From the NCBI RefSeq assembly GCF_019320115.1, contig NC_089598.1:28243711-28307710 (forward strand): a stretch of 64,000 nt of DNA. Reading direction: 5' to 3'. Origin of the DNA: Miscanthus floridulus. Its lineage: Eukaryota; Streptophyta; Magnoliopsida; Poales; Poaceae. Below are positions 1 to 44,654 of this stretch, one piece after another; the stretch's first letter is position 1; the number at the start of each line of letters is the position of its first letter. The notes below the pieces were generated by a model. The model was not told the DNA's origin. It was given only the letters and a program-made list of their open reading frames with translations, and did not search any database. A program made the position numbers and the translations under genes.

Positions 1-955
1 AACATAAAATATGCGGGAGCATTTGTCAAGCCAAAAGACATGACAAGATACTCATACAACCCGTATCTGGTGGAAAATGCAGTTTTTGGTATATCCTGTG
101 GCCTAATCTTAATCTGATGATAACCGGATCTCAAATCTATTTTTGAGAACACCTTGGCCTTGGATAATTGGTCAAACAGAACATCAATATGTGGCAAGGG
201 ATATTTATTCTTGACGGTCACAGCATTGAGTGGCCTATAATCTACGCACATTCTCAACGTGCCCTCTTTCTTTTTCTTCACAAACAAAGCTGGACATCCC
301 CATTCAGACTTGCTTGGCCGAATAAACCCCTTTTTCGACAAATCTTCTAATTGCTTCTTTAGCTCAGCTAACTCGTCGGGAGGCATCCGATAGGGCCTCC
401 TTGAAATCGGAGCTGTTCCGGGGACTAACTCAATTCCAAACTCAATCTCCCTATCTGGCGGAAGACCAGGTAGCTCATCCGGGAATACGTCCGGGAATTC
501 ACACACTACCGGAATCTGATGAATAGGAATGACTGCCGTAGCGCATGTAACACTTATAAGGTCTGTTCTTCGAGGCAATGGTACTTGGAAAGTACCCTCA
601 CCCAGGGGATCCTTAAGGGTAAGTACTCGACCTCCAGTATCTATGACTGCTCCCCAATCCTTCATCCAATTCATCCCTATAATGACATCCAAGACTAACC
701 CAGGCATAACTATCAAGTTCACTCGGAACTTCCTGCTACCTAATTCAAGGGTTGCCCCTCGAACCATCCGGTTGGTCAAAACATCAGCCCCTGCTGAACT
801 TATACGGTAACCATAACCCAATTCTGTGCATAGTTGTTCATGCTTCTGTGCAAATGCTTGACTCATAAAAGAATGCGATGATCCAGAATCAAATAGAACA
901 ACTGCAGGGTTTTCATTGACAGTAAACTTACCAGCAGTGACGGGCTCTCCCTCTG
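1..955 (-). CDS. pol: E1 Ty3/gypsy protease and reverse transcriptase (partial)
   Basis: This is the N-terminal part of pol, cut by the left window edge. On the minus strand an aspartic protease motif (VVLFDSGSS) lies near 900-876. It is followed by the usual linker ([20 protein letters not shown]) near 500-440. The start of reverse transcriptase includes [11 protein letters not shown] and ends at [13 protein letters not shown] at position 3. The DSG codon at 890 and the ATG at 5 are in one frame, and the parts I translated by hand are open. The same frame matches the gag start at 2132, so gag and pol were one reading frame. The sequence resembles chromovirus (Tekay/Del) pol. The YVDD/FIDD box, RNase H and integrase lie outside the window. 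As the innermost element it looks younger than its neighbours. Confidence 0.88.
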
Positions 956-2132
956 AATTTCATCCACTGTTGTACTGTGCACTCTAGCATTATAAGTCTG
1001 CTGCTTCTTCTTGGGCGGGTATGGACAAAACCTCGAGAAATGACCGGGTTGATCACAGTTATAGCAGGGTCCTCTCACTGTCCCGGCAGATCCCACAGCT
1101 CCCTTGGAACTGCCTTGTACCGCAGTTGCGGCTGCTTTGTTGGGCTGTACTGCCATCTTGTACGGCTTTTGAGGTCCACAGAAAGTTCTGGCTTCTTGGC
1201 TGAGGTGGCCTGAATCTAGCACCAGGTGCCGATGGGCGATAAGGAGGACGACCTCCCATAGGTGCTCTAGCTTGAGACGGCCCACCTTCGAAGGCTCTCT
1301 TGCGTGTCTTGGCTGCGGTGCTGGCGTTGTTATTCTTCTCCTGCTTCAGACAGTCACTGATGAAGTCGTTGAATCTGACGCGGTTGTTGGTACCAACATG
1401 CTTCATCATTTTTGGATTGAGACCCCTCTTAAAACTGGCTATCCTTTTGGCATCTGTGTCAACCATGTCGGGAGCATAGCGACACAAGTTGTTGAAGGCA
1501 TGCAGGTATTGCGTCACGGTTTTGGTACCCTGGTTCAATGCCAGAAACTCTCCCAACTTCATTTCAGTCAGCCCGGGTGGAATATAGACTCCACGGAAGG
1601 CCTCAGCAAACTCTCTCCAAGAAATCTGAGCATTTGGAGGGAAGGTGGTGCGATGGTGCTTCCACCACATTCCCGCCGGTCCTTGCAATTGAAGTGCAGC
1701 ATACTCCGTTTTCAGCACCTCAGTCATCCTCAACACACGGAATTTATCTTCCATCGTGTTGATCCATTCCTCAGCATCGAGTGGCTCTGTTGCTTCCTTG
1801 AATACGGGTGGCCTGGTGTCCATGAAATCCTTGAAGCTGCTGTACTGGTTTACTCCCATGCCACCGCCTTGATTGTTACCACGTTGCACGTTGTTGGCTA
1901 TGGTGCGCAGAAAATCTTCCATGTTCTTCTGGGATTGTTCTGCATTGCGCTGACTCCCGAGCAGCTGTGCGAGAAACATCTCGGTGGTGAACGGGGGAGG
2001 AGGTGGCAAATGCGGTTCATGGGGAGGCTCATTGTTGTTGCCATGATTTCCTCCACCACCACCAGTCCCTGAACCGTTAGCACCGGGCTCAGCGGCTTCA
2101 TAAGTGGTTCGGCGAGTGTTTGTCATCTGCAT
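956..2132 (-). pseudogene. gag: E1 gag polyprotein with two compensating frameshifts
   Basis: Gag forms the virus-like particle and binds the element RNA. The ATG at 2132 opens a frame with a Gly/Asn/Pro-rich N-terminus. The retrotransposon gag core follows (PPVFKEATEPLDAEEW, then GPAGMWWKHH, then GEFLALNQGTKTVTQYLHAF). The zinc knuckle CYNCDQPGHFSRFC (about 1073-1030) lies in a different frame. The original frame returns in the protease, since 2132 and 890 are in register. One indel near 1200 and an opposite one near 955 therefore shift only the knuckle segment. The frame is otherwise open. As it stands, the protein made would stop before the knuckle, so E1 gag is probably non-functional unless this is a sequencing error. 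Confidence 0.85.
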
Positions 2133-2493: not shown

Positions 2494-3483
2494 CTACTCC
2501 TCGTGGCCATCGTCGGGATCGGAGACGTCACCATCGCCTCCCGGTGAAACTACAGGCTCATCCTGGTTGTCGTCGTCGATGTCCATGCCAGCGGCGTTCG
2601 GCGGAGCATATGGGCCAACCCCATTGTAGAGCGCGTGAAACTCTTCGTGCAGGTTGCCGTTGTATTCCTCTAGCTCATCGACTCTCTGCAACAAAAGGTT
2701 TCTTGCGTTCCAGGCTTCATTCCTTTCCTGGACCAACTGTCCAATCATGCGGTCTGCATTGTTGTTGGCTTGAGTCAACGTATGCACTCGCTGCATAGCT
2801 CTATCACCTCTCTCAACCGCCTGATCTCGCTGTAAGTTCATATCAGCCAACTGCTCCTGCAAGCTAGCTATGGCTCGTGCCTGTCTCTTCTTCTGCTTCT
2901 TCCCTTTGAGCTTATCCTCACTACGCAAGCCAGTCAAAGTCCAGTAGGTACTCTCGAGACCCTCATACGCTCTGATGGCGGCGAACATAGCACTCATTGT
3001 CTGGTTGTCGCTAGCCTATCCCTCAGCTGGACCTCTGACCAATGCGCTTCCTTGAGGCTGAACCCAAATGGCATCACGAGGATCATCCCTAGGAAAAGTA
3101 CCAGCTAGAGCTGCAGCAAGCTCACTGGGAAATCTGCTCATAATGTCCCTGATGACACGGAAGGCTGCTCCCTCTGCACCCTCAGCTGGAGTGCGACCCT
3201 CAAACTCCAAATACCAACCATCCCAATCTGGGGCATCACCAAGAGCAGGAACCGTGATCTCCACCACTGCAAGTCCATCATCTGCTAACTGGCTCTCATT
3301 CCAAGAGTACACCGGCTCTTGACCCTCTGGGTACCCCACATCATGGAGCACTCTCCAAAGCAAAGTTGGCATGCCAAACTCGCTCAAGAAGGTGTCCATG
3401 GTGCGGTGCTCCCTCAGGGCCAACGGACGTCGAGGTGCTCTTCCTCCGGTGGACTTACGGGCGGTCTGCTTTGTGCGGGCCAT
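2494..3483 (-). CDS. E1 extra ORF with histone H3 tail mimic, coiled coil and acidic end
   Basis: The ATG at 3483 begins MARTKQTARKSTGGRAPRR. Without Met, residues 1-13 equal histone H3 and 18 of the first 21 match; the changes are K14R, K18R and Q19P. The modifiable residues R2, T3, K4, R8, K9, S10 and T11 are kept. About 130 residues with no recognised family follow, including WRVLHDVGYPEGQEP and WYLEFEGRTPAEGAEGAAF. An in-frame TAG stands at 3018-3016. The same frame then resumes as a Lys/Arg patch (KLKGKKQKKRQAR), a coiled coil (ERNEAWNARNLLLQRVDELE) and an Asp/Glu-rich end. It lies between primer site and gag, a place used for extra ORFs in some plant gypsy elements. An ATG three codons upstream (MLQM) is possible, but 3483 gives the H3 register. 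Function is inferred: competition for H3-tail readers or writers. It is not a host H3 gene, as no histone fold follows. Confidence 0.85.
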
Positions 3484-4258
3484 CTGTAGCAAAAGTTCTC
3501 TTATTACTTCGGGGAAACATATTTTTGGTGATACACTTTTATCAAAATGAGATAATCAATTTATAAGGGGAGGTATGCATGAGATGAATGAGATGCACAA
3601 GTAACATGATGTATGTTCGTGTCGTACGTTCTCACAAACTTAGGAAATAAATAATTTCTAACGACGAATTCGGTGGCATAACAACGATCTCTCAATTACG
3701 TAGCTAATACGTTCTACATGATAGCGTTGTTATGTACCTGCAGAAGATTCATTTCAGCCCAATTCCCAATGAATGCATAAAAGCAGTAAAATTTTTATCT
3801 ACACGCTCTACACGAATCCCCGATACGTGTACAACGGTAGTAACTACCCGAATCATCATCCTAATGATGGCATCGCCTCCACAGACGGAAGACCCTCACA
3901 TGAGATACCTTGGTAAAACATGCGTAGAACATGTAATTACTCCAGCACCATATAAGCATTCACCCTAGATCGGCGGTGTATCCGATCATGCTCTCACAAC
4001 TCACACTTACCGAGGCGTAGAGGCAATTGATCCATTCATTACCACTCAAACAAGTGGCACTCATACAATAGCACGCCGTATGAGCGACGAAAGAGAAATA
4101 TGATGCAAGAACCCCAGTCAGTACTTAATTAAGCCACCTAAAGTCCTTAACTGGGCATAAAGGATATGATCACTGGCACACTTTATAGTTTTAAAAATCA
4201 CGTTTTCCAATGCCTTTTTGTTTTAAATACACTTGTGAATAGTAACACGCTAAACCAT
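3484..4258 (-). other. E1 untranslated leader
   Basis: This AT-rich stretch between primer site and first ORF has no coding sequence I can support. It should be the 5' leader of the genomic RNA, where packaging signals would lie. No specific signal was recognised. Confidence 0.6.
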
Positions 4259-4270
4259 GCTCTGATACCA
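4259..4270 (-). promoter_or_regulatory. E1 primer binding site (initiator Met tRNA)
   Basis: The minus strand reads TGGTATCAGAGC, complementary to the 3' end of plant initiator Met tRNA. It is two bases from the LTR end at 4273. This is the priming site for minus-strand cDNA and fixes the orientation of E1. Confidence 0.93.
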
Positions 4271-4272
4271 GC

Positions 4273-7200
4273 TGTGACAGAACCGACCAATTATACGAAA
4301 TTAAGTGAGAAAATCATCCACTAGAGCAGACGATTTATCCAACTTAAGCCCGTATAACCCGGTAGTCCGTGAAATCACGAAGGATTTCAAACCAACTCGT
4401 GTCCCAGCCATGATCATAGTAAGTTTAGCGGTCACCATCACATATTACATAAAAGTTCGCGGTCTCAGATACATCAGAGTTTAAACATAGTTATTACAAA
4501 CCAGTTCGAATAAAAGTAGCGGAAGTCATTTGTTCAAACCACACACACACTCACGCGGAGTTTAAATACAGTGCCAGCGGATGATCATCTCCAACAAAAG
4601 CATTAGATGAGACGTAAGGAATGACCATGCCCATGGTCCTAAGCATCACCCATTGCAGGATACAGGCAGTTGATACAGTAGCCATAGTACATCTGCCCAT
4701 CTGCAACAAGTGGGAATAAAACCCTGAGTACGAGAAGGTACTCAGCCAGACTTACCCGACATAACCGAAAATAATGACACCAAGGATTATGAAGGGCTTT
4801 ATAGTAGGGTAGCTGACTCATTTGCAAAAGAAGCATTTTTAGCATTTCAAGAACCTTTCTAAAAGCATTATTGCCAAGTTAATTATTATTAACCTGTCCA
4901 CTAGATTCGCACCTATACTAGAGTAAACATGTGATTAAGCAGATAATGATAACCAATGATCATTAAGCAACTTCCATACTGTCATATTCACTATAACTGT
5001 CCAAGTGTTCCATAACATTTACTACGATGAAGTAACTCAAGTCAAGTGCTCACTATCTAGGAGCGATGGCGATTCGAATCGATTCCTAACCAGCTGGTGA
5101 TTTATTCCTTACACAAACCTCACTCACCCGCTAAAGTGAGATATTGATCACCGAGTCAACTTTCCAGGAATCTCGAGTTTGCCAGGAACCACATGTACCC
5201 GGGGGCCGACCGACTGCACTTTGGTCTTATCATCCCGCCCCCGTGTCCTACCACACCTGCTCCAGTACAGTGCGTTGCGGGCAATCTACTCGGCCCAAAA
5301 AATCTCCTAGCTTCGCGGTCGGAAGGTACTTTATCCGGCCAGCTAAATGTAAGGCATGCGTTCAACATGACTCGAGGCCCAACAACGGTCGGTCCTTAAT
5401 CGACACAGACGGAAACACTACAGTCCAGAACTCTGCAAGTCTCCGTCCGGTCTCAACTTCATTTAACACTTAGTTATACCATGACTTCATAGTCATCCAA
5501 GCAGATCCAGGTAACCACCTATAGCTCGCAGGTGACAGGAAATCACCCGACTTCTACCGGTCTAAGCCAGCTAAGCATTGACTCGACTGCGGATACCAGG
5601 GTAACAAGGATATAGTATAACAAAGGTAAACAAGGTATAATGCAGCAACGGTTGCAAACAACTCCTGAACGTAATGCATCAATTAAAGTAAAGCATTTAA
5701 TTAAATCATTGCAAACCGGGAGAAAAATGCTCCGGGGCTTGCCTCTCTCGAAGGAGCTCGGACGGTGATCGGGGCACTCCGGAAGTTCCTCAACGTCCTC
5801 CTCGTCGGCTTCTGGCACTTCCTGCTGCTGCACCTCGAGCTGCTCCTCGGGCTCCTCGGGTATGACGACTGGGTTCTCGGTTTGCGATCCTGTATGATGC
5901 AATGCGTGTAAGTGATTATGCAAACGGTGCATCGAAGGAGATGAATGCAATGGATATGTTGAAATGCAAGGTAGTCAACATCATCTAAGAACTATACTAC
6001 AAGCACATGTCATCTACTGCATTCTTTTCTACTACTAATATGTTAAGTTAACCTATCTTATGAAATGCTTCAAAGATACACCAAAGCTTTACGACTTTCT
6101 TAATCACACTTAAAGCGACACTGGCTTAAACCCTAGTTAATAATAGGTTTGAATAGCAACCTATATTTCTGATGCTCCTAAAAATCTGAGAAAATTGCAG
6201 TAGCATACTACTACCCTAAACAGACTACCATAAAAATTTCATGGCATTTGGATAAGTAAACCATCCTACACAAAAATGACAAGCTATAGCATGAAAATGA
6301 GCATGAAATTACTTTGTACTATGAAAAGTGTCAAACAACAGAATTAATATTTTTCCTAGGTTCTTCATAGCATATAATGACTGTACAAAAATTACCACAT
6401 GCATGTTTTATACAAAGTTTGCTCTCTATCAAAAATAACAAAAATCAGCCCTTAAAGGCACTTGAACTACACCTCCAAAGTTTTCCACAGCACATGCATG
6501 AAACAGATTTTTCCTAAGGAGTACATGACACAAGAAGATTAACAAACTTGGAATCATATTTTTCTGAAGCCTATATATTTTTCTACATATTTTTCAAGTT
6601 ATCAGCAATATTCATGATTAAATAAAGTTCTACAGAAAAGTATCTCAAAAATGACATGCACAATTTTTCCCAAGTAGATCTGGTGATAAGGAACCTAGAA
6701 AAATTTGTTTCAACAAATTTGGAGCAACTTTGAGTATCCAAATATTTTGCAAACCATTTCTGTTTTCAAATAACAAATAATAAATGGAAATTAATTCATT
6801 TCAGAATGCTGGGCCGGCCCGAATGGAACAGCTGGCCCATGGCCATCACCGGCCTGCACGGCCCGAGCGCGGGGGAGAGGAGATGGCCCATCAGGGCGTC
6901 AGCCCCCGGCCCGGCTCGGCCTGGCCAGCCGAGGCGAGGCGCCATGCCGGAGCGCGCGCTGGCGCGACGGCGGGGCTCGGCCAGCGGCCGGCGGCCGTCT
7001 CCGGCCACGGCAGCGCCAGCGAGCGAGCGCAGGAGACGCGCGAGGAGAAGGCGAGCTCGGTAGGGTAGCTAGGCGAGGCTGGAGGGGAGAAGGAAGACGG
7101 ATTCCACGGCGGCCGTGCACAGCGGCGCCATGGCCGTCGGCGGCGAGACGCGGGGAGGCCCGACCTGTGCTCGGAAGGCGGAGCAAGTTTGAGCACGACT

Positions 7201-8161
7201 TCGAGGAAGGCGAGGCGGAGCTCGGGGCACGAGGAATTGGAGAAAGGCGCGGTGGTGAGGGAGTTTGATGCCGGCGGAGCTCGGGCGTGGCGAGGGCGGA
7301 GCTCGGGGCTCGCGGCGAGGGCGGAGGGAAGGGCAGCGCGGCAGGAGTGAAGGCAGAGCGCGTACGGCTGGCAGCAGGGCGCGCTCCTCTTCAAGCCCGC
7401 CAGCGCGCTGCGTGGTCAGAGCTAGCCGGGCGCGTGGCGGACACGCGGCGGGCGTCGCCTGACGCGGGTCGGGACGTGGCGCGGCGACGGGCACGGCGCG
7501 CGGGAGAAGAAGGCGCGGCGCGCGGAGGCAGGCCGGGCTGGCGCGGTGCTGGGCTGGGCCGAGCGAGGCGAGGCGCGCGGCGCACGGGAGCTCGCTGGGC
7601 CGGCTTCGGCTGGCAGGCCAGAAGCGAGGCGGCGGCCCAGAAAAATTGAAATGGAATTTTTCAATTGATTTTTAAGAAAATTTTAAAATGCCATCTTTCA
7701 AACATTATTTTGAGCAAGAAAATGACCTCTTTTGAAAATGTACCAAAAATGAAAGTTGCTTAGAATTTAATTCCCTACAACTTTGCTTTAGGTTGCTCAG
7801 ACATGCATAGACTCTAAGTTATACTTTTTAAACAGTCAAACCAAAGAGTCCAGGAGTCAAAACAAGTCAACCACTATTTGAAAACTTAATTTGTCAAAAT
7901 GGTTAACATGAACATTGTTCCTAATGACTTTCTAAGCATAGCTAAGGTGTTTAGAAATATATTTAGCCATATCACACATTGGTCACGCAAGAATCAAGCA
8001 CAGAATGCACTGAAACGATGAAAAACAATACAAATGTTATATTTGTTTCAAGGCCATGTTTTCCCATGTTTCAAGTGACATATGCTCATGAATTGATGAA
8101 TGATGCTCATGAATATGAAATGCAAGTGCAATTAGGCAAGAATAACACCAGGGGTGTTACA
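4273..8161 (-). repeat. E1 5' LTR, about 3.9 kb
   Basis: On the plus strand it runs from TGTGACAGAACCG, beside the primer site, to GGGGTGTTACA at 8161. In element sense it starts TGTAACACCCC and ends in CA, a normal TG...CA LTR. At 3889 bp it is long, as in Tekay/Del-type elements. It shares short blocks with the E2 LTR (such as AATCACCCGACTTCTA near 5541) although most of the rest has diverged. The ORFs in it have no homology I recognise. Immediately to the right the E2 RNase H frame begins, so 8161/8162 is an insertion junction. The partner LTR and target duplication lie outside the window. Confidence 0.88.
6790..7655. other. GC-rich, CpG-dense block inside the E1 LTR
   Basis: About 860 bp of very high GC with many CGCG and GGCGG runs, in an LTR that is AT-rich on both sides. 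Overlapping open frames on both strands (up to about 167 codons) come from the lack of AT-rich stops and have Arg/Ala/Pro-rich translations, so I do not call genes. It lies about 0.5-1.4 kb from the LTR start in element sense. The E2 LTR has a weaker GC block in the matching place (about 14345-15230). Confidence 0.8.
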
Positions 8162-9498
8162 GTAATGCACCTCCAAGTCATAATCTTTAATCAATTCTAA
8201 CCATCTTCTTTGCCACATGTTCAATTCTGATTGAGTAAAGATATACTTTAGACACTTGTGATTTGTATAAATATGACAAATATTACCAAGCAGATAATGC
8301 CGCCAGATCTTCAAAGCATGGACAACTGCTACTAATTCCAGATCATGAGTTGGATAATGTTCTTCATGTTGCTTAAGTTGTCTAGAAGCATAGGCAATGA
8401 CTTGGCCTTCTTGCATCAATACACACCCAATACCAATACCAGACGCATCACAATAAACATCGAACAGCTTCTCGATATCTGGCTGTGCTAACACTGGTGC
8501 AGTGGTTAATAATCTATTCAAGGTCTGGAAAACTTCTTCACAGTTGGGTGACTAGACAAACTTGGCTTGGTTTTTCACAATCCAGTGATGGCCTTGGATA
8601 TTCTAGAGAAATCTAGAATGAAACGACGGTAATAACCCACCATTCCCAGAAAACTTCAAACCTGATGAACAGTGGTTGGTGGTTTCCAATCTAGTATATC
8701 CTTAACTTTGCTTGGATCTACTGCAACTCCTTCAGCTGATAAGACATGTCCTAAAAACTATACATCCTTTAACCAGAAGTCACACTTACTAAACTTGGCA
8801 TATAACTGATGTTCTCTTAGGCGTGTCAGAACAACTCTGAGATCTTCAGCATGTTCTTTCTTGTTCTTGGAGTATATTAAGATGTCATCAATAAAGACTA
8901 CTACAAACTTGTCTAGCTCAGGCATGAACACTGAATTCATTAGATACATGAAGTGAGCTAGGGCATTCATCAAACCAAAAGACATTATCAGGTATTCATA
9001 TAATCCATATCTGGTGGTAAATGTCGTTTTGGGAATATCTTCAGGCTTAATTTTGATTTGATGATATCCTGACCTCAAATCAATCTTGGAGCAAACCTTG
9101 GCTCCAGCCAGTTGATCAAAAAGCAAATCTATCCAGGGTAAGGGATATCTATTTTTAATTGTCACTTTATTCAATGGTCGATAGTCAACACATAATCTCA
9201 GGGTCTCATCTTTTTTTTTCACAAAAATTGTAGGACATCCCCAAGGTGATGAACTAGGTTGGATAAAGCCTTTATCAATCAACTCTGGCAATTGAGTCTT
9301 CAACTCAGCTAATTCCTTAGGAGGCGTCCTATAAGCTCTCCGAGAGATCGAAGCTATTCTAGGATTAAGATCTATTCCAAATTGAACATCTCTATCAGGT
9401 GGTAGACTGGGTAAATCTTTAGGAAAAACATCTAGAAATTCACAAACTACAGGGATGTCTCTAATCTCTTTGATGGAAGTTGCACAAACTTTTTCCAC
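8162..9498 (-). pseudogene. pol: E2 gypsy reverse transcriptase and RNase H, cut by E1
   Basis: Reverse transcriptase covers 9498-8758, from [17 protein letters not shown] through [20 protein letters not shown] and [13 protein letters not shown] to the active site [18 protein letters not shown] is the usual chromovirus form. NAPAHF has become NALAHF. The part from 8757 to 8522 is recognisable but broken by stops. RNase H begins at 8521 ([14 protein letters not shown], then [20 protein letters not shown]). A normal TDHKSLKY reads TNHKCLKY. The frame then runs into E1 at 8161/8162, so the end of RNase H and the integrase are displaced beyond the left edge. Not functional. Confidence 0.88.
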
Positions 9499-9891: not shown

Positions 9892-11067
9892 CTAGAATCT
9901 CCCTAGCTTGAGTATAGAAAACCTACCCTGTCTTCTTTTCATTTCTGCCCTTCTGAGCATTTTGGTTGTTGTTCTTGTCCTGAGCTTGACCCTATTGTTG
10001 ATTTCTCGGAGCCTTCTGAAAATTTGGATTATACTACTTAGGATATGGACATTCCCTAGAGAAATGACCTGACTTCCCACAATTGAAACATGGGTAATTG
10101 TGGCCTTGAGGTGTTGGAGCACGAACACCAGGAACATTTGTCTATTGTGTGTTCAGGTAAGTTATAGCAGGAAGGATATTTCGTCGCTGCCCAGCTTGGA
10201 ACTGCGGTGGACGATAAGGAGGATGGTTGTGATTCACCAGATGATAGATTATCTTCTGTATCTTTTGATTTCCACCATAAGACCCAGATGGCACGCTCTT
10301 TTTCTTCTTAATTTCCTTATGCTGCCGATATTTCTCCTCTGAAGCAATAATAATGTTAACCGTCTCATGATATGTGACATTTGTGCAGGTAGTCATCATG
10401 GTCTAAAGTTTGGTACTAAGACCACGCATGAACCACTTCTTCTTCTTAGCATCTGTGTTAACATGCTCATGTGCATACTGTAAAGGTGATTGAACTTGCC
10501 CACATACTGCATGACTGTTTGATCACCTTGCTTCAAAGCAAGAAACTCATCAAGCTTCATGGCCATAACTCCATCTGGAATATAATGGGCATGGAAAGCA
10601 GTGCGGAACTCGACCCAAGTTAACCGAGCACCAGCTAGTTGCATGGCCACAAGGTTCACCCACCAAGCACCTGCTACACCTCTAAGCTGTTGGGCAGGAA
10701 AAATAGGCTTCTAGAACTCAGTGCATGGAATGAGGTCGAACTTCTGCTCTATGGTACGTAGCCAATCATCAGCTTCAAGTGGTTCGTCAGCCTTGGTAAA
10801 TACTGGTGGTCATGTATCCATGAAGTCAACATACATAGCTTCCTATCTTTGATGATTACGACCATGATTCCCTTGCATCATATTTTGATTGCTTTGAGCT
10901 AACTCCCAAAGCAACCGAGCATTATCTACGGTCACATGGACCAGTGCCGTGATAGCATCAGCCAAAGTTGGCAGAACTGGTGGTGGATCAGGAACACCAC
11001 CCTCGTCTTGTGAAGAACCAAGAATATCCAAAGCCCGAGTATGAGGCATCTGTTCATGACAAACCAA
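9892..11067 (-). pseudogene. gag: E2 gag, broken
   Basis: Gag pieces lie in several frames. The likely start is MPHTRALDILGSS near 11050, beginning about 156 bases beyond the H3-like ORF in element sense. The core shows PPVFTKADEPLEADDW, then LTWVEFRTAFHAHYIPDGVM, then LDEFLALKQGDQTVMQY. The zinc knuckle is CFNCGKSGHFSREC near 10090-10045. Several stops interrupt it, one just after the knuckle (CPYPK then TAG). Order and motifs match E1 gag, which supports common descent. Confidence 0.82.
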
Positions 11068-11223: not shown

Positions 11224-11793
11224 TCAAACCTCAGGATCGGTATCCATTCTAGAAACATTTCCACCTTCATCACCACTTTCATTGACCACCACTACTTCTT
11301 CTAGATCCTCTTCTTCTTCCTCTTCAGGTTCATCGTCATCTGCTATGATGACACCTGGGTCCATTGCATCTGCTTGAGGCTCATGATTTGGATTCAGGAG
11401 ATTGTTCAGCCTATGGACTTCTTCATGCAGATTGGTATAATATTCTTCTAAGTCTTCTACATAAAACTCTAACTCATGAACTCGGGCTCTAGCTACATCT
11501 TCTGTATGCCAAGCTTCATTTCTTCCTTCCACCATATGAACTAACATACGCTCATAGTTCTTATGAGCGGTGGTGAGATACCTCAATTGATTCTGTAACT
11601 TGCCCACCTGGATGGCATCCAAGGCCCTATCTCTAGTAGCCTATGCTAATTCTGTTGAAAGCCTCTATACCTCAGCCTGGGGATCAGGCCTCAAGCTACT
11701 ACTGCTAGCACCATCACTCCTAGGGGCAAGCTGGTGACGAGGGACTCCTTTAGGTCCAATGGACTTACGGGGTGTTACCTTGGTACGAGCCAT
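11224..11793 (-). pseudogene. E2 extra ORF with histone H3-like N-terminus
   Basis: The ATG at 11793 reads MARTKVTPRKSIGPKGVPR. Against H3 it keeps A1, R2, T3, K4, T6, R8, K9, S10, G12 and K14; it changes Q5V, A7P, T11I and G13P, and then gains one residue. In the same frame there are two TAG codons (11667-11665 and 11643-11641). A coiled coil (VEGRNEAWHTEDVARARVHE, then YYTNLHEEVHRLNN) and an acidic tail (DDDEPEEEEEEDLEE) follow, with the stop at 11224. The coiled coil aligns with E1 (shared RNEAW, RV-ELE, NLHEE-H-L). The roughly 130-residue middle part of E1 is absent, so the frame has 189 codons rather than 329. Position before gag is as in E1. Two stops suggest a dead copy, yet the H3-like residues outlasted much other change. 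Confidence 0.82.
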
Positions 11794-12168
11794 ACTGTAG
11801 AAAGCAAGATTTCATAACAGTAACACAATCTGAGAAGAGTCTAAAGAGTAGTAAGAATGGGACTTATACTACTCAACCCAAACTAAGAGGGAAAGTAATT
11901 AACAAGTGGATTAATCATGATGCATGAATCGTCCTTATGAAACTTAAACATCAAAGCTCATAAGGTACATAAACAATAGTTCTTATTATATAGGGCATAA
12001 TAAGATTACTACTCCACCATATAAAACCCTTTTAATCAAATAAGGAATTGCGAGAATGAAGTAAGATAAGTCGAAAGCAATTTGGACCAAATTAACAAGT
12101 TAAATTTATTTGCCCCAAATCGTTTTGAAGTTTTTGTAAAACAATACTACAACAATCTTTGTAATGGT
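11794..12168 (-). other. E2 untranslated leader
   Basis: AT-rich sequence between the E2 primer site and the H3-like ORF, about half the length of the E1 leader. No ORF or recognised signal. Confidence 0.55.
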
Positions 12169-12180
12169 GCTCTAATACCA
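12169..12180 (-). promoter_or_regulatory. E2 primer binding site (initiator Met tRNA), one change
   Basis: The minus strand reads TGGTATTAGAGC, one base from the initiator Met tRNA complement, three bases from the LTR end at 12184. Confidence 0.85.
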
Positions 12181-12183
12181 TTC

Positions 12184-15100
12184 TGTGGTAGAACCTCCTA
12201 AATTATAGGGCCCATATGCACCTGTTATTGTCCAATGACTTCTGACGACTATGCATATGTTCCCGATAACTTAAGAAGCCTGTCGGGTGTCCTCGGGAAA
12301 CCCGAATCATCCATGATTTCTTTCGAGCAGGATCCATCACAGAGTCATTGTAGTATTACAATAGTTTATTCATTAATATACATTAGAGTAAAATAGCGGA
12401 AGTCTTACAATAACTTAGTTACAAAACAGTTGTTTCACAAACTAAGAGCGATTATTATTACAAACCATAGTAGTGGAGTAGCCTAAGTAACATGATATAA
12501 AACACGCAATTTAAAGTGCCCTACCCAAGGGCCACACATTTACTCGACATCTTCGATTTGAACAACCGTCATGCAGCACGGTCCAAGGCAGACCTGCCCA
12601 TGAGGCTCACCTGCAACAAGGGTTAAAGAACCCTGAGTACAAAAGTACTCAACAAGACTAAACCGATGTAAAAACGGAGAAAACTCGAGAAATGCAGGCT
12701 TAGGGATTCAAGGAAAGGCTTTAGCAAGAATCAAAGTTCTTTTATGTAAAAGCTCTATCATAAGATTCTTTCTTTCAACATATAACTCTCATCAAGATCG
12801 TATATGAATCTGCCATGATCCGTATTGAGACCATGAACTTCATATCAAACCCTTTCTCAAATCTTCCTCAAGTTTTATTTATTAACTACGATGATGAACA
12901 GTGAGTTGAGTCTCCATAACCGAGGAGCAATGACCATTCGAACCGATTATAACCCAGCTGGGGATTCCCAACTACATGACATATGCAGGTCCCTGACCTA
13001 CATATACCAACCTACCCTCAGATTCTCTAAAACAAGAATGGGTTCGTGCCACCTGAGAACACAATACTCCTCCAGTCCAGCCCATTGCCATGTGGGTACA
13101 CGCTACTCTTGCCATCTCTCCACTCCTAGTGCGCGAGTAGCCATTCTCGTAATAGAATAGCCGAGTTAAGGCTTACCGGAGTATGTGACTAGTACTACAA
13201 AGTCTCACCTCATGCAACTCAATAGCGGATGGTTCTTAACTGACATAGGCGGAAAGAACCCGCTCACAAGACATCCATGTCTTGTGGCTCTCATACACCG
13301 AGTCCGCCCGGTCTAAAATTATTACTCCACATGGTTACATCTTATGATAACATAAATACCCAATCGTATCCAAAATCCATTTATATCTCGCAGTGACAGG
13401 TAATCACCCGACTTCTATCGGTCTAAGCATGGCTAAGCATAATTAGGCATTCTCGAATTGAAACTGGTAGCAAGGTTGATATGGAAAAACAAGGTTGGTA
13501 ATGCACCAATTAGGTTTCCACTCAGCTCCTAATCACTTAATGCAACATTTAATAATAAAAGCGATATAAATTTGTAAAACATAAGGTAGGTTTAAATGCA
13601 TCCGGGGCTTGCCTTGATTGCCGGAAAAGTCTGGTTCCGGAGATGTTCCACAAATATCAAATCCGACCTCAATAGGTGGATTAACTCCCTCAACAACTTG
13701 GTTGACTATCACGTTCTCACTTTCGTTCACTACACGTAGTAATAATACCATGTCTAAAATGATGCGAAATATAAAACATGATGCTTGACGATGGATGCAA
13801 AAGTTATTAACTTGAATACAACTTTCCTTCGTGGTATAGTTACAAGCCAAAAACTAACTAAACCTTTTTATAACTCAAATACTTACTTTAAATGCCAAGG
13901 ATCATTTTATGCTTATGACCCAAGGTCATCACTCAATCTCGAATTCAAACAAAACCTAAGTCATTAGGAGTTAATATTTGTTTTTATTAATTAACAATTA
14001 ATTCAAAATTATGAAATAAACCAACTTTTTCCAATTGAGCTCAATTTTTTTGTGAAGGCTCATCACATGATAACTAAGTGTAAAAACAATTTTCATAATT
14101 TTTGGATAACTACACAAGCCTAGAAAAATCATGAAAACTCATTTCTTAATTAATTTGAGCAATTTTTATCATGTTCAAAATGTACTGAAAAGTAACATTT
14201 AATATTTTTCCTAAATAGTTTACAGCTTAGAGAGGTCACTCAAAAATTTTCATAATTTTTGGAGCTGTATTTAATTCTACACAAAATAAACAAATCATAG
14301 CACTATTTAATCATTTCTGCAAAATAGAAAATTTCATTTTCATTAAAACGGTCACTGATAGGGTGACCCCACCGGTCAGCCCGTGCTGCCCACAGCGGCG
14401 AGACCCTCTGACCGGTGACTACTTGCTGATGGTGAGGTTGCCGGCGACGGCGAGGGTACCATCATGTTCCCCACCTCACGGCGCGTCGGTTGGTGGCACT
14501 AGTTGAACCAATTACTCCTTGGTCCGAGCTCGGCGCCGGCCATGGCGGCTCGGCCGAGCTGTGCATGACGGCACGGCGGCGTTCTAGCTGCTAGAGTTAG
14601 CTAGAGCTTCATTTAACTACTCGAATAGCAGCAGAGGCTCACCTAGATCGGGCTAGAGCGCTTGGTTGGCTGTGAGCACCAAAGGGCGTGTCTGTCAGCG
14701 TTGATGGCGATGGCGGCAACGGCGAGCACGATGTTCCGGTGGCTACAGTGGATGAACAGATCAACCAACAAGACATAGAGCATCACGGAAACATAGAGAA
14801 GATGGAACTATGCTAAGCAAGGATAGAGACGCACCGTAGAGTGCTAGCCACAGAGAGGCGAGGTCGGCGGCGTTGCGGCCGGTCACGAAGAAGAAAGCCG
14901 GCGCGCAGCGTCTCTCGATGAATTCTAGTGTCTAGGACTGGTCGACTGGGTTTGCAAGGTACAAGCAGATCGGTGACATGCTCAATTGAGGCTAGGGGAG
15001 CTCTGTGACTCCGGCGCGAGCTCGACGGAGCAGGGCGGCGGTGACGGGAAAAACAGAGGAAGGAATGGATGAGGACAACGACGGCGTCCCGGCTTTATAG

Positions 15101-15778
15101 CACGGCCAAGGAACATGGAGACGACATGCAATAGCTTCCCCATGCCAGCGCGAAGTAGGAGGTGGCTACGGTCGCACCTAGAAGCCGGTAGAAACTGGCC
15201 GGCGGCGAGAGCTGCTTGCTTGCACTGTTCAAGCAAATTACAGAATTGCCACTCACTCAATTTCTCAAATTACTCTCAAATTTGTATGGAAACTCAAAAA
15301 TCTCCAAAAATAAAAGTTGTTCCAAATTCAAAGTTCTACAACTTTGCTTTAATAACCATACCAAAATTCTATCTAGATTTGAAAATGCAAGTTTGAAATC
15401 AAAAGGGGACACTTTAAGAATTTATCCCCTTTCAAATTACTCCAAATTTTACATAACAACTATGAAAACTCTAAAAACCAACTTTGTACACATTGACAAG
15501 CTCTACACTTTTCATTTTAGGCTCGACCCCAAAATGTGCTTAGATTTTGAATTAGGTTTTCTAGGGCAGAATTTAAATGCTTGAAATTAGGGTTTTGGAA
15601 TTCAAATTTAATACTAGAGTTATGAACTTGATTCATCCATACAAGTCAACACATATAATCATAAAAGTAAACTTGTTTTAGTGAATGCATTATCAAAGTT
15701 TTCACTAACTCAAAAATGATGTGCAATGCATATGATGACATGGTATATTTTAGTGTTTAAAACACCAGAGGTGTTAAA
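12184..15778 (-). repeat. E2 5' LTR, about 3.6 kb
   Basis: It runs from TGTGGTAGAACC beside the primer site to CCAGAGGTGTTAAA at 15778. In element sense the start reads TTTAACACCTCTGGTG, a worn TGTAACACC. Blocks shared with the E1 LTR include AATCACCCGACTTCTATCGG near 13400, CCGGGGCTTGCC near 13602 and AGCGGAAGTC near 12394. A GC-richer segment lies at about 14345-15230. The ORFs inside have no recognised homology. At 15779 the copia reverse transcriptase of E3 begins, marking the insertion junction. Confidence 0.83.
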
Positions 15779-16306
15779 GTAGCTTTGCACATATGCTTAG
15801 ATAGGAAATATCGGAGACAATTTCTACCAAATGATATCATCAACATAGATTTGCATTACAAACAAGTTATTTCCAAGCTTCTTGCTGAAGAGAGTGGTGT
15901 CAACCTTTTCCATCTTGAATCTCTTAGAGAGTAGGAAATCCCTCAATCTCTCATACCATGCTCTAGGTGCTTGTTTTAATCCATACAAAGCCTTTCTCAA
16001 CTTGTAAACATGGTTGGGTTTCTTTTCATCTTTAAAACTGAGAGGTTGCTCAACATACACAAGCTCATTGATGTACCCATTAAGAAATGCACTCTTCACA
16101 TCCATTTGATACAACTTGATGTTGTGGGCACAAGCATAGGCTAACAAGATCCTAATTGCTTCCAATCTTGCAACCGGGGCATATATTTCTCCAAAGTCTA
16201 GACCTTTAACTTGAGTGTAACCTTGAGCCACTAATCTTGCTTTGTTTCTTATTACTATCCCATATTTATCTTGCTTGTTCTGAAAGACCCACTTGGTTCC
16301 AATCAC
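15779..16306 (-). pseudogene. pol: E3 copia reverse transcriptase, cut by E2
   Basis: Ty1/copia reverse transcriptase of the SIRE/Maximus type. From 16306 the frame reads IGTKWVFQNKQDKYG, then RLVAQGYTQVKGLDF, MDVKSAFLNGYI, ALYGLKQAPRAWYERL and the active site QIYVDDII at about 15850-15827. The final FGS has become W plus stop just before the E2 junction. The remaining thumb and RNase H lie left of the window. E10 carries the complementary 3' half of such a pol, from a different copy. Confidence 0.9.
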
Positions 16307-22136: not shown

Positions 22137-24336
22137 GAAGGGCAAGTCAGAGGCTTTGGAGCGATGGACCGCATGGCGGTGAAGCTTGAGCAAGACTTGG
22201 CGCCGATGGATGAAGGCAACAGTGAAAAGCAAGTGAAGTCAAGATCGATGATCCAATATAATCACGTGATGATATGAAGTGGATCATATCATTGTTGATC
22301 ATGTTGGTGCATGTGTTGCATCGACATTGGAGGAGATGGAATGGAATGCGCAAGGCAAAGGTATAACCTAGTGCATTTCATTTCACCGGTCATAGGTGTG
22401 TAGAGAAGTTGATGACCAGGTTTAGGATAGATGGTCATACTATCAAGAGGGGCAAACTTGTTTGCATATCGGTCATCTAGTGCCACTCGAGTGATCTAAC
22501 TTTGCATCATTGCTAGGATCGAGTGGCGTGGCAAGTTGAGTGGCTAATCCTTTGGAAAAATGATTATGAAAATGCTAGCACACATACACATGATGGTGTA
22601 CACTTGGTGGTGTTGGCACATTTACAAAGGAGATGAAGTTGGAGTTGATGTGGATCAACTCGGCGATGAAATGGAGGCGAGAAGGGTTTGAAACTCCATC
22701 GGCGGAGTGTCCGCCCATAGAGTGCGGACAGTTCGACGGTGCCACTGGTGCCCTATATAGAAAAGATAGGGGTTCACAGAGTGATCAGACGCTAGTGGCA
22801 TAGTGACCGGACGCTGGGGTCCTGCGTCTAGTTAGTAGTGGCAGAGAGCGTGCAGGTGTCGGTCTTTGACCGGACGCTGGCACTGGAAGTGACCGGACAC
22901 TGGCAGGGTGTGTCCGGTCAGCTGACGTATGGTGACGTAGGTGATACAGAAAAGTTGGAGAAGGACCAGACGCTGACGCTATGTCCGATCATGACTGACC
23001 GGACGCGTCTGGTCACGACTAGTACCTTACTAGAAACGACCGGACGCTAGGGTTGTTGCGTCCGGTCAGTTTGTGCAGCTACATCCGGTCATCACTTGAC
23101 CATTGGGATCAAGTGGTTAAGGTTGAATAGAGGCGACACATGGTGAGCATCCATTTACCGAACACTGAGGTCCTGCGTCCGGTCGATACGACCGGAGCGT
23201 CCGGTCGTCCTGAGTTTTGCCCAATGAAGGGATAATGGCTAGTTTAGCCTGTGAGGCTATAAATAGAAGGTGGCCTTAGCCATGGCTGGAGCTGAGCACC
23301 TCAGGGGACTTTATGTCCATGCTTGTGAGTGCTTAGGAGCCCTCCATCTCACATATGCTTGATAGTGATCATCCGATTGTGTGAGAGAGTGATTCTAGTG
23401 TGATTGCATCATAAGGTTGCATCGAGTGGCACTAGGTGATCGAGTTGCAAGCCTGTGGTGCTTGTTACTCTTGGAGGTTGCCACCTCCTAGATGGCTTGG
23501 TGGTGGTCTCCGTTGAAGCCCGCAAGAAGCTTGTGCGGTGCTCCAAAGAAGAGCTTTGTGAGTTACATTGTGCTCGCCCCGCAGGAGCCGCGAAGAGCAA
23601 CTTTAGTAAAGCATGTCATTGAGCTACCCTCGCTTTTAGGGTAGGTTCTTGTGGTGCCTGATGTGCGGGCTTGGCGGGTGATGCCAATTAGCCGCCAAAC
23701 CACCAAGTGAGCGGTCGACACAACAGGGACTAGCATGTTGGCAAGCACGTGAACCTCAGGAGAAAATTCACCATGTCAACCTTGTTCTTCCCGTTGGTTT
23801 GCATCCTCATTACACAAGCTTGTAGTTACTTTCATATACATTGTGCTTGTGTAGTTGCTCTTGTATTTAGTTAAAGCTCACTAGTTACCTTCTTGCTTGT
23901 GTAGCATAGAAGTGGCTCCCTTGCGTGGCTAATTTGATTTGTGTAACCTTGTTAGTCACATTGCTTAGTTTGTGTAGCTAAGTATTTGCGCTCTCTAATT
24001 TGGCATTGGTTGCCTTGTTATTGAGCATTGTTAGTGAGCATTAGGTGGCTTTGTGTTTTTGCTTACTAGCATGTGTAGGAGCTCCCTTGTTGCTTAAAGT
24101 ACTAGTGGCATAGGTTTGTGTGACATTGCTTCTAGAATTAGTTAGGTGAGCTCTAGCTAGCCCGACACCTTTGTTGCTTAATTAGTATCTTTGGAAGGTG
24201 CTAAAGAACATAGATAGAGGGGTGTAGTCTTGGCTAAACCGATAGTTTTAATTCCGTACTTGTTTCAATTAGCCGACGCGATTAATTTTAGAAAGGACTA
24301 TTCACCCCCCCTCTAGTCTGTCATCTTGACCTTACA
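22137..24336 (+). repeat. E4 5' LTR, truncated at its start by E3
   Basis: The sequence from 22271 onward matches 44655-46728 closely, so these are the two LTRs of one element. It ends CCTTACA two bases before the primer site. A TATA box (GGCTATAAATAGAAGG) lies near 23260, with many TGACCGGACGC-type motifs at 22780-23200. A CACCCCCCCTCTAG tract precedes the end. The first part of the LTR lies on the far side of E3, outside the window. Confidence 0.9.
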
Positions 24337-30598: not shown

Positions 30599-32387
30599 TG
30601 TCGACACAGAATTTTGTCCCATGCCGAGGACACACGCAGCAAGCCGAAAGGGTCTGCTCGATGGAGCAGATCCACCTAGCTTCAGTGCAGGGGTGGCCGA
30701 TCCTACACAATCCTCCTGAGGTGTGCCAGTCAATTTGACCCTGCAATTGACAAGGAGAGAAAGTTCATCAGTAATTAAGGGCGGAACTTACTAGTGTTGC
30801 CAGACAATCCCGAATGTACGGCTGTGAGAGCCGATATGAAAGGAAATCGGCTAAATAGCCAATTCTAGTATATTCATGAGAATAAGTCAGTTAGAGCTCA
30901 TGGGGTCATGTGAAGAGAATTGGTTATCATTCAGGATAAACATCATTTAAACGAATATTAATCAATGGCAATAAGATATCAATGATGATCGGTCCATACT
31001 GAGCCAATGATTATGAGAAACTGAACTCCTTTTTATATAAAGAAACAATTCAACATCACTTAATCATTTAATAAAGATAAATCTAATGAACATGTTAGAT
31101 CTCATTATCGCCATGACTAGTGGGGCATGAGGCAGAATCATGCAGGCCGTAGAAACAATAATAGACTCGACGACCCTAACTCATTACTAATATCAGTGGG
31201 GCATGAGGTAGAATCATGCAAGCCGTAATACAATAACAATATCATGGGGCTAACGCATCTTTCAACTTATCTCTACTTCAACGATCTCGTGATGTGAACT
31301 GTTCATGAAAGTATTCGATATCGGCTAAACAGCCGATTCATGCATAGCGCACAGTTAAGGTCATGTCTTCTTAGGAACGGATCTATCAACCAACGATCCC
31401 CACTCCATGGTGCCAACAGTGGGGTGAGAGGCAGAATCCCACAGGTCGTGATGACGGGCCATCAAATGGTTCTCGCTAACCGATAGATCTACTCAAGATC
31501 GAGCATGCCTTAACCGCACACTATGCACAATTAAGATTGACGCAAAATAGCCGATAAAAACATAACTCATCGCTTAAGATGTAGATTAGATTAGTTTTAG
31601 ATTAGCAAATGATGAGTTAAACAAGATATAAGGCCAATCTAGATCAATCTCAATCGGGTAGAGTGATATTGATGCAATTAGATAAGCAATGAAAGCAATA
31701 AGTAATATCGGTAACTTAATGAATCTACCAAAGACTGCCACTCTAAGATAGAGCCGATAACTTGACCTCGATCCAATTCAAGCAGTGGGGTGTAAGGCAG
31801 AATCACACAGGCCATACTTGAATTAGGCAAGAGTCGATAACTAGCTTATACCAGAGCCATAGTGGGGGTCGACCGGATCGATGCAGCCATACGAATAGAG
31901 GTATAAACCATGACGGTACTTACAACAAGCAGTGGAGGTCGACTGGATCGATGCAGCTGTACTTGCCGAAGAACTCACCAAGATCTACTCTACTCCTACT
32001 CCTAAGGGGTGGCTGGAGCCAAAAAAATAATTGACTTGTATTGATTGATTGATTCCTTTTACAATAGCCGAGGTTTGGTATTTATACCTGGGCCCTAAAA
32101 TGAACCCTACTCGAGTATGACTTAATACAATCTTTGGCATAATGAAAACATTCCTAATTTAAGATAACTTGGACTTTAATCTTTCCCTTTTTGTAGAGTC
32201 CAGCATGTCTCGTCTCAACGCCGATCATAGCCTCCGTCATTATCTGCTGGCGCTATCTGAAGAAAGCTAATTCTAGCATTGCATCCGAATCAGCTGGTTT
32301 TGATCTACATGCAACTGATCCCCTACTGTCATGATCTTGGGAGCTCCCGAGCTTCTGAGATCCTTCTTCCAAATTCTAGTGTAAACA
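30599..32387 (-). repeat. E5 3' LTR (Tat-like gypsy)
   Basis: From TGTCGACACAG to CTAGTGTAAACA on the plus strand; in element sense TGTTTACAC...GTGTCGACA. The second copy is at 42883-44654. The two differ at many positions, mostly transitions, so the insertion is not recent. Minus-strand TATAAATA near 32070. It carries four copies of a GGCAGAA-loop hairpin (31125-31143, 31201-31219, 31419-31442, 31791-31807). E5 is minus strand, so this left copy is the 3' LTR. Confidence 0.9.
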
Positions 32388-32403
32388 CATGCCCCCCAAT
32401 TTT
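32388..32403 (-). promoter_or_regulatory. E5 polypurine tract
   Basis: The minus strand reads AAAATTGGGGGGCATG directly before the LTR start TGTTTACAC, a G-rich plus-strand primer. Confidence 0.8.
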
Positions 32404-42882: not shown

Positions 42883-44654
42883 TGTCGACACAAAATTTTC
42901 ATCTCTATGCCGAGGACACACGCAGCAAGCTGGAAGGGTCCGCTCGATGGAGCAGATCCGCCTAGCTTCAGCGCAAGGGTGGTCGATCCTATGCAATCCT
43001 CTCAAGACGTGCCAGTCAATTTGACCGTGCTATTGACAAGGAGAGAAAGCTCATCAGTAATTAAGGGCAGAACGTGTCGGTTTTGCCAGACAGTCCCGAA
43101 TGTGCGGCTCTAAGAGCCGATATGAGAGGAGATCGACTAAATAGTCGATCCTAGCATATTTGCAAGAATGAATCGGTTAAAGCTCATGGGGTTGTATAAG
43201 AAGAATCAGTTGTTATTCAGGATAAAAATTATTTAAGAAAATATTAATCAATAGCAATAAAATATCAACAGTGATCGGTTTGTACTGAGCCAATGATTAT
43301 TAGTAACCGAACTCCTCTTTATATAAAGAAACAATTCAATATCACTTAACCATTTAATAAAGATAAATCTAATGAACATGTTAGATCTCACCTATCACCA
43401 TGACCAGTGGGGCATGAGGCAGAATCATGCTGGCCATAGAAACAAAATAGACTCGACGATCCTAACTCATTACTAATATCAGTGGGGCATGAGGTAGAAT
43501 CATGCAGGTCGTAATACAATAACAAGATCATGGGGCTAACATATCTTTCAACTTATCTCTACTTCAATGATCTCATAATGTGAACAGTTCATGAAAGCAT
43601 TCGATATCGGCTAAATAGCCGATTTAGGCATAGCGCACAGTTAAGGTCATGCCTCCTTAGGAACAGGTCTACTAACCAATGATCCCCACTCCACGGTGCC
43701 AACAGTGGGGTGAGAGGCAGAATCCCACAGGCCATGATGACACTAATAGATCTACTCAAGATCAAACATGCCTTAACCACATGCTATGCACGATTAAGAT
43801 TGACACAAAACAGCCGATAAAAACATAACTCATCATTTAAGATGTAGATTAGATTAGTTTTAGATTAGCAAATGATGAGTTAAACAAGATATAAGGCCGA
43901 TCCAGCTCAATCTCGATTGGGCAGAGTGATATTGCTGTAATTAGATAAACAATGGAAGCAATAAGCAATATCGGTAACTTAATGAATCTACCAAAGATCG
44001 CCATACTAAGGTAGAGCCAATAACTTGACCTTGATCTAATTCAAGTAGTGGGGTGTGAGGCAGAATCACACAGGACATACTTGAATTAGACAAGAGTCGA
44101 TAACTAGCCTATACCAGAGTCATAGTGGGAGTCGACCGGATCAATGCAGCCATACGAACAGAGGTATAAACCATGACGGTACTTACAGACAAGTAGTGGA
44201 GGTCAACCGGATCGATGCAGCCGTACTTTCTGAAGAACTCGCCGAGATCTACTCTACTCCTACTCCTAAGGGGTGGCCAAAGCCAAAAAAAGTAATTGAC
44301 TTGTACTTGATTGGTTGATGTCCTTTACAATAGCCGGGGTTTGGTATTTATACCCGGAGTCTAAAAACAAACCCTACTCGAGTATGACTCAATACAATCT
44401 TTGGCATAATGAAAACATTCCTAATTTAAGATAACTTGGACTCTAATCTTTCCCTTTTTGTAGAGTCCAGCATGTCTCGTCTCAGTGCCAATCATAGCCT
44501 CTATCGTTATCTGCTGGCGCTATCTGAAGAAAGCCAATTCTAGCGTTGCATCCAAATCAGCTGGTTTCGATCTGCACGCAACTGATCCCCAACTGTCATG
44601 ATCTTGGGAGCTCTCGAGCTTCTGAGATTCTTCTTCCAAATTCTAGTGTAAATA
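42883..44654 (-). repeat. E5 5' LTR
   Basis: From TGTCGACACAA to CTAGTGTAAATA, partner of 30599-32387. Minus-strand TATAAATACC near 44350 lies between GGGT and ACCC-type arms. All four GGCAGAA-loop hairpins are present (about 43410, 43484, 43706 and 44050). No 5-bp target duplication: CATGT precedes the left LTR and GATAT follows this one. Confidence 0.9.

Follow-up and report, generated by a model that had tools for sequence, protein, structure and literature searches.

A histone H3-like tail opens the accessory protein of an abundant Ty3/gypsy retrotransposon family in Miscanthus floridulus

Two nested elements and their extra reading frames

The window analysed here, a stretch of 64,000 nucleotides of Miscanthus floridulus contig NC_089598.1, carries two nested Ty3/gypsy elements on the minus strand with element 1 lying inside element 2 (Table 1). 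Element 1 runs from its 5' LTR through the primer site, the accessory reading frame E1 and gag to the protease and the start of the reverse transcriptase, and element 2 contains a 5' LTR, a related frame termed E1b, gag and a reverse transcriptase. Gag, protease, reverse transcriptase, RNase H and integrase of Ty3/gypsy type were all detected in the element, the zinc-binding and SH3 parts of the element 1 integrase scoring over the Pfam cut-off and its rve core below it. The traits of Tekay/Del (Retrosat2-like) elements were present, namely LTRs over 3 kb, an ORF ahead of gag and a primer site (4259..4270 in element 1) that we take to be of the initiator Met tRNA type.

Table 1. Positions of the features of the two elements, numbered along the window unless another stretch is named
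Feature	Position	Strand	Remarks
Protease and start of reverse transcriptase, element 1	3..959	minus	runs off the window
gag, element 1	1059..2132	minus	Retrotrans_gag, E=3e-18
E1 ORF	3483..2494	minus	between primer site and gag of element 1
E1 part 2: coiled-coil-like region, acidic C-terminus	2497..3015	minus	stop codon 2494-2496
In-frame stop of the window E1, after codon 155	3016..3018	minus	unbroken copies elsewhere in the genome
E1 part 1, 155 codons: tail, linker, conserved domain FLSEFGMPTLLWRVL...	3019..3483	minus	
H3-like tail of E1, codons 2-24: ARTKQTARKSTGGRAPRRPLALR	3412..3480	minus	H3 match and between-subfamily constraint
CTACAG immediately ahead of the E1 ATG	3484..3489	minus	candidate 3' splice site
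Primer binding site, element 1, TGGTATCAGAGC	4259..4270	minus	
5' LTR, element 1	4273..8161	minus	
3' LTR, element 1	L034:3716-7605		left of the window, where the remainder of element 1 lies
Reverse transcriptase, element 2	8758..9498	minus	RVT_1, E=3.7e-29; pol interrupted further on by element 1
E1b of the older element 2	11224..11793	minus	diverged H3-like tail, two in-frame stops
Primer binding site, element 2, TGGTATTAGAGC	12170..12181	minus	
5' LTR, element 2	12185..15779	minus	ends placed by eye against element 1

The LTRs of element 1 differed by 16 mismatches and 3 gap positions across 3,891 columns, and a GTAAT target-site duplication was located on both outer flanks (window position 8161 and L034). 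Element 1 is a young insertion that interrupts pol of element 2; its age is about 0.16 million years at a rate of 1.3e-8 substitutions per site per year. Elsewhere in the window, an array of mostly 44-base spacing with 39 repeat copies (30 listed) and spurious long ORFs extends from 34817 to at least 36717, and two pairs of direct repeats, 22552-24298 with 44934-46690 (spacing about 22.4 kb) and 30621-32390 with 42907-44657 (about 12.3 kb), are possible LTR pairs of further nested elements.

E1 opens with MARTKQTARKSTGGRAPRRPLALR and, as a preliminary description had reported, its first 13 residues are identical to those of histone H3 and 18 of the first 21 agree, in register from residue 1. 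H3 chains were the top PDB matches of E1 (E=7.5e-6), the best 60 of 144 matches starting at residue 1 or 2 and ending at residue 22-28, and a profile of 35 sequences that included the one from the window matched PDB H3 chains at E=9.8e-8, with the matches stopping at profile position 23-29 (best 60 of 137). The low E-value, the register and the family-wide presence of the tail rule out a chance likeness, and the H3-like nature of the E1 tail is confirmed. The further claim that no histone fold follows the tail was borne out, as histone-fold families were absent from the Pfam matches at E<=10 for both E1 halves and for the 35-sequence set.

The region after the conserved domain was assigned as a coiled coil by eye and from the source names of relatives rather than by a predictor. 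E1b starts at 11793 with MARTKVTPRKSIGPKGVPRHQLAPRS, an H3-like tail more diverged than that of E1, followed by a coiled-coil-like and acidic part but without the middle domain of E1. The frames of both E1 and E1b are broken in the window and we therefore make no claim on the activity of the window copy of E1.

A CAG adjoins the ATGs of E1 and gag in both elements (3484-3486, 2127-2129, 11795-11797 and 11050-11052), a context shared by 55 of the 2,979 ATGs in the window. In E1b the CAG is one base more distant from the ATG, and in the gag of element 1, which has two in-frame ATGs, the CAG stands ahead of the second. A CAG ahead of the E1 ATG was also found in 49 of 53 genome copies of the window type and in all six copies of a second type (P0053 type, see below). 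Upstream ATGs number 21 and 9 in the leaders, and the donor-like sites also present there are uninformative. The CAG next to each start codon suggests alternative 3' splice sites, by which separate E1 and gag messages would probably be made.

Distribution of the tail and constraint on its codons

Relatives of E1 were gathered in three protein searches (best 120 of 222, all 108, and best 120 of 229) and fell into two forms. Form A has the layout of tail, domain, coiled coil and acidic end, and form B, exemplified by E1b (11793-11224), keeps the tail without the domain. The start of the form A domain was present in 36 of the 336 gathered proteins, and among the matches listed the H3-like tail was found in all 29 form A relatives that extend at least 20 residues upstream of the domain, a count obtained with a query that contained the tail and from lists of the best 120. 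A form B search with the C-terminal piece only recovered the whole tail in 11 of the best 120; P0272 starts inside the tail, P0334 has a different N-terminus and the others begin further on. In one protein, P0100, the tail and beginning of one E1 subfamily are followed by a middle domain that is strongly diverged and lies on a long branch, possibly as a result of recombination between E1 subfamilies. The viral_contigs, genome_contigs and plasmids collections held no relatives of E1.

The concern that E1 might be an oddity of the two copies in the window was ruled out by the candidate lists from the source genome (2.68 Gb), in which the two E1 halves gave 8,880 and 8,489 first-look candidates and a query from a second subfamily gave 8,447. 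The best 150 were scored in each search, so that 150 scored places are listed for each of two subfamilies. The E1 frame was unbroken in 18 of 26 copies selected by the N-terminal half and 31 of 53 selected by the C-terminal half, and the E1 family is thus abundant with many frames unbroken.

Constraint on the tail was assessed between the window type and six P0053-type copies (6 of 150 listed places), which represent one subfamily and hence one comparison. For each of the six copies, 4-6 of the 11 synonymous sites in codons 2-14 had changed, as against 0 of the 28 non-synonymous sites (p 0.004 to 0.0001). Over the domain, non-synonymous change reached 71-76 of 237 sites (0.30-0.32 per site, with synonymous change at 0.76-0.81 per site), and the difference in non-synonymous change between tail and domain was significant at p=1.6e-4 (72/237) and p=7.7e-5 (76/237). 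The P0053-type copies were picked with a query holding both tail and domain, and any selection bias would affect both. Compared with the same six copies, E1b had a ratio of 0.22-0.33 over codons 2-24 and of 0.27-0.34 over codons 2-14. Between the tails of E1 and E1b, differences fell on 12 of the 19.8 synonymous sites and on 12 of the 52.2 non-synonymous ones (p=0.004), with dN at 0.27 in the tail versus 0.52 in the C-terminal part and synonymous sites saturated. Among form A proteins the mean pairwise identity of the tail was 0.857 against a median of 0.617 over 13-residue windows, and the stretch around FGMPTLLWRVL alone was better kept than the tail, while the form B tail was not better kept than the remainder (0.86 versus 0.88-0.97).

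Within the young family a different pattern was obtained. Across 53 copies (of 70 loci, 16 were dropped as gapped or only partly matched and one as a duplicate; the copy in the window was retained) codons 2-14 carried three synonymous and nine non-synonymous variants, a pN/pS of 0.88 in which constraint was not visible, and codons 2-24 gave 0.36; for the tail, such within-family ratios are a weak measure. Selection of this set by the C-terminal half biases its C-terminal ratios, which were set aside; its ratio for codons 34-140 was 0.20. For codons 141-285 a pN/pS of 0.08-0.09 was obtained from 26 copies (26 of 28 loci, window's own copy included) selected by the N-terminal half, with codons 141-155 falling within that query. 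The tail ratio of 0.18 from the 26-copy set is biased low and was not used because the set was chosen by the N-terminal half. E1 beyond the tail is, by these ratios, constrained too.

The preliminary description had named neutral evolution of the tail codons as grounds for dropping its idea, and neutrality was seen to fail between subfamilies while the variants within the young family gave no visible sign of constraint. That the tail is a fossil of an H3 capture without present use would fit those within-family variants of codons 2-14, which resemble plain decay, and the broken state of both window copies. We consider it highly improbable, as the between-subfamily constraint on codons 2-14 leads us to reject a plain fossil and the tail has been retained in two body plans. 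Comparison of the aligned codons shows the tail to have been kept by selection between two A subfamilies.

In the residue counts position 9 was Lys throughout, in all 30 form A rows, all 11 form B rows, all 53 genome copies and all six P0053-type copies. K4 was Lys in 25 of 30 form A rows (four R, one W) and in 11 of 11 form B rows, and the exceptions P0091, P0104, P0107, P0112 and P0115 form one clade (support 100/99) in which K9 is kept. T6 and S10 were each kept in 38 of 39 tails. Position 5 varies, form B included, and all 11 form B tails have Pro at position 7, three of them with Ala at position 3. In form A, K14, K18 and K23 are exchanged mostly for Arg or His. Of the 28 form A tails, 27 have Arg at position 14, whereas P0066 and all 11 form B tails have Lys there, so that the K14 site has not been lost throughout the family, and Lys at position 18 or 23 was absent from the 39 database tails (28 form A, 11 form B). 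The earlier picture of intact K4 and K9 with lost acetylation sites thus stands for K9, for K4 in most tails and for K18, to which K23 can be added, and holds for K14 in form A only.

These counts bear on whether the H3-derived tail is simply a basic segment for nuclear import or nucleic-acid binding, in which likeness to H3 beyond charge would be irrelevant. The tail is basic, grass Tekay 5' aORFs are predicted to be nuclear in the text of Kazancev et al. 2024 (PMC11728184), and the Arg and His exchanges in form A would suit such a role. Under charge alone, however, K/R exchange would be expected at position 9, yet Lys stands there in all rows counted, T6 and S10 are almost always kept, and the codons free of non-synonymous change between subfamilies include those of neutral residues. 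We regard a plain basic segment as unlikely and prefer mimicry, because conservation extends to neutral residues and to the identity of K9, beyond what charge would require. The emphasis placed on K9 derives solely from its conservation.

Candidate roles of E1

The 5' aORF of Tekay elements was reportedly dealt with by Steinbauerova in 2011. Extra reading frames in the place of E1 have been published as ORF0 (Gao et al. 2012, PMC3485330) and as the 5' aORF of Tekay (Kazancev et al. 2024, PMC11728184), and E1 corresponds to these by position, the likeness being one of place and not of compared sequences. As described in the main text of Gao et al. (PMC3485330), the bearers of ORF0 (Retrosat2, RIRE3, RIRE8, FRetro3, ZMsat2, Sorsat2 and Brasat2) resemble the present elements in being Ty3/gypsy with LTRs over 3 kb and an extra ORF ahead of gag-pol. 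ORF0 is given there as limited to grasses and very divergent in sequence, and the proposal made for it, unlike our account of E1, is of metabolic enzymes. The grass Tekay 5' aORFs share with E1 their position, a long C-terminal helix and, in maize and sorghum members, a folded part (PMC11728184). The words 'histone' and 'MARTK' are absent from the main text of Gao et al. (PMC3485330), 'histone' is absent from the main text of Kazancev et al. (PMC11728184) and, by term search, from Vicient and Casacuberta 2020 (PMC7264820), and it occurs once in the text of Neumann 2019, on chromodomain binding (PMC6317226). No H3 tail on a retrotransposon protein was described in the titles and abstract openings surfaced by literature searches.

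The aORF proteins of maize Tekay and sorghum Sb7 have a weak fold match to a DRBM protein (TM 0.35-0.37) in Kazancev et al. (PMC11728184), from which E1 could be chiefly a dsRNA-binding silencing suppressor acting through its middle domain, with the tail secondary. Sequence support for a dsRBD in the middle domain was absent: dsRBD families were not found among Pfam matches of the 35 sequences at E<=10 or among the 13 PDB hits of the domain at the same threshold, and in a profile comparison against five dsRBD sequences the score was 1.37, lower than all ten top-scoring shuffles out of 100, with shallow alignments and without a positive control. Form B also keeps the tail without the domain, and we consider such a suppressor very unlikely to be the main role of E1.

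The same tail conservation could be expected of a chromatin tether or guide that docks E1, and with it the particle or integrase, onto readers of the H3 tail and thereby directs integration into chosen chromatin. In the text of Neumann 2019, type II chromodomains have no identified partner (PMC6317226), and E1 could join that contact. Homologues in five non-grass plants lack ORF0 in the account of Gao et al. (PMC3485330), which indicates that the enzymes can spread without it, an argument qualified by sunflower Tekay group 2, whose 5' aORF has no sequence likeness to the grass ones (PMC11728184). Docking of this kind appears to us quite unlikely. As an explanation, tethering of E1 to the chromodomain that the element itself encodes is weaker than a decoy: the integrase C-terminus matched Pfam Chromo at E=0.0031 and 17.8 bits, under the cut-off of 25.1, and the domain appears, with the cage residues judged by eye, to be of type II, which is without residues of the aromatic cage for H3K9me (PMC6317226). 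Because the chromodomain appears to be of a type without parts of the methyl-lysine cage, a decoy is favoured over such a tether.

The reading we put forward, tentatively and as possible rather than probable, is that E1 is the 5' accessory protein of a young and abundant Ty3/gypsy chromovirus and carries a captured H3 tail under selection, which acts as a mimic on silencing factors centred on H3K9. The tail corresponds to about H3 residues 1-24, and its capture from a host gene would probably predate the divergence of forms A and B. Removal of the initiator Met would expose A1-R2-T3-K4 and T6-x-R8-K9-S10 as in H3, and the coiled coil could display several such tails per particle. SUVH-type methyltransferases, SHH1 and CMT-type readers act on H3K9, and the displayed tails would occupy enzymes or readers of this kind and, as pseudo-substrate or decoy, weaken the silencing of the element. 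Loss of K18 and K23, and in form A of K14 too, would keep acetylation at these positions out of play. Binding of the tail to H3 writers or readers and a benefit to the element are what we infer from sequence comparison, and the decoy is a possible form of them. A stronger version, in which the captured tail is presented on the coiled coil as a pseudo-nucleosome that sequesters the H3K9 methylation machinery, the removal of K18 and K23 blocks release by acetylation, and silencing is affected in trans across the genome, seems to us somewhat unlikely.

Viral histone mimics exist, for example the tail of influenza NS1, and share with E1 a short copy of the H3 tail on a non-histone protein of a parasite. 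The E1 tail differs from them in being N-terminal, 21-24 residues long and probably captured, and in belonging to a plant retrotransposon present in very many copies. The VANC proteins of VANDAL elements are, like E1, accessory proteins of a plant transposon, and VANC opposes silencing; unlike E1 they are described as sequence-specific, and the opening of the abstract mentions no histone likeness (PMC10398659).

The ORF0 and 5' aORF proteins of abundant plant elements are presented without a tested function in the texts available from the publications on them. A conserved H3 tail on such a protein offers the testable idea that the element addresses the H3K4 and H3K9 machinery directly, and suggests that it imitates host chromatin, perhaps to escape silencing. 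If true, this would help explain how the element multiplies under RdDM and H3K9me2, and histone mimicry, known mainly from animal viruses, would be added to the arms race between plants and their transposons.
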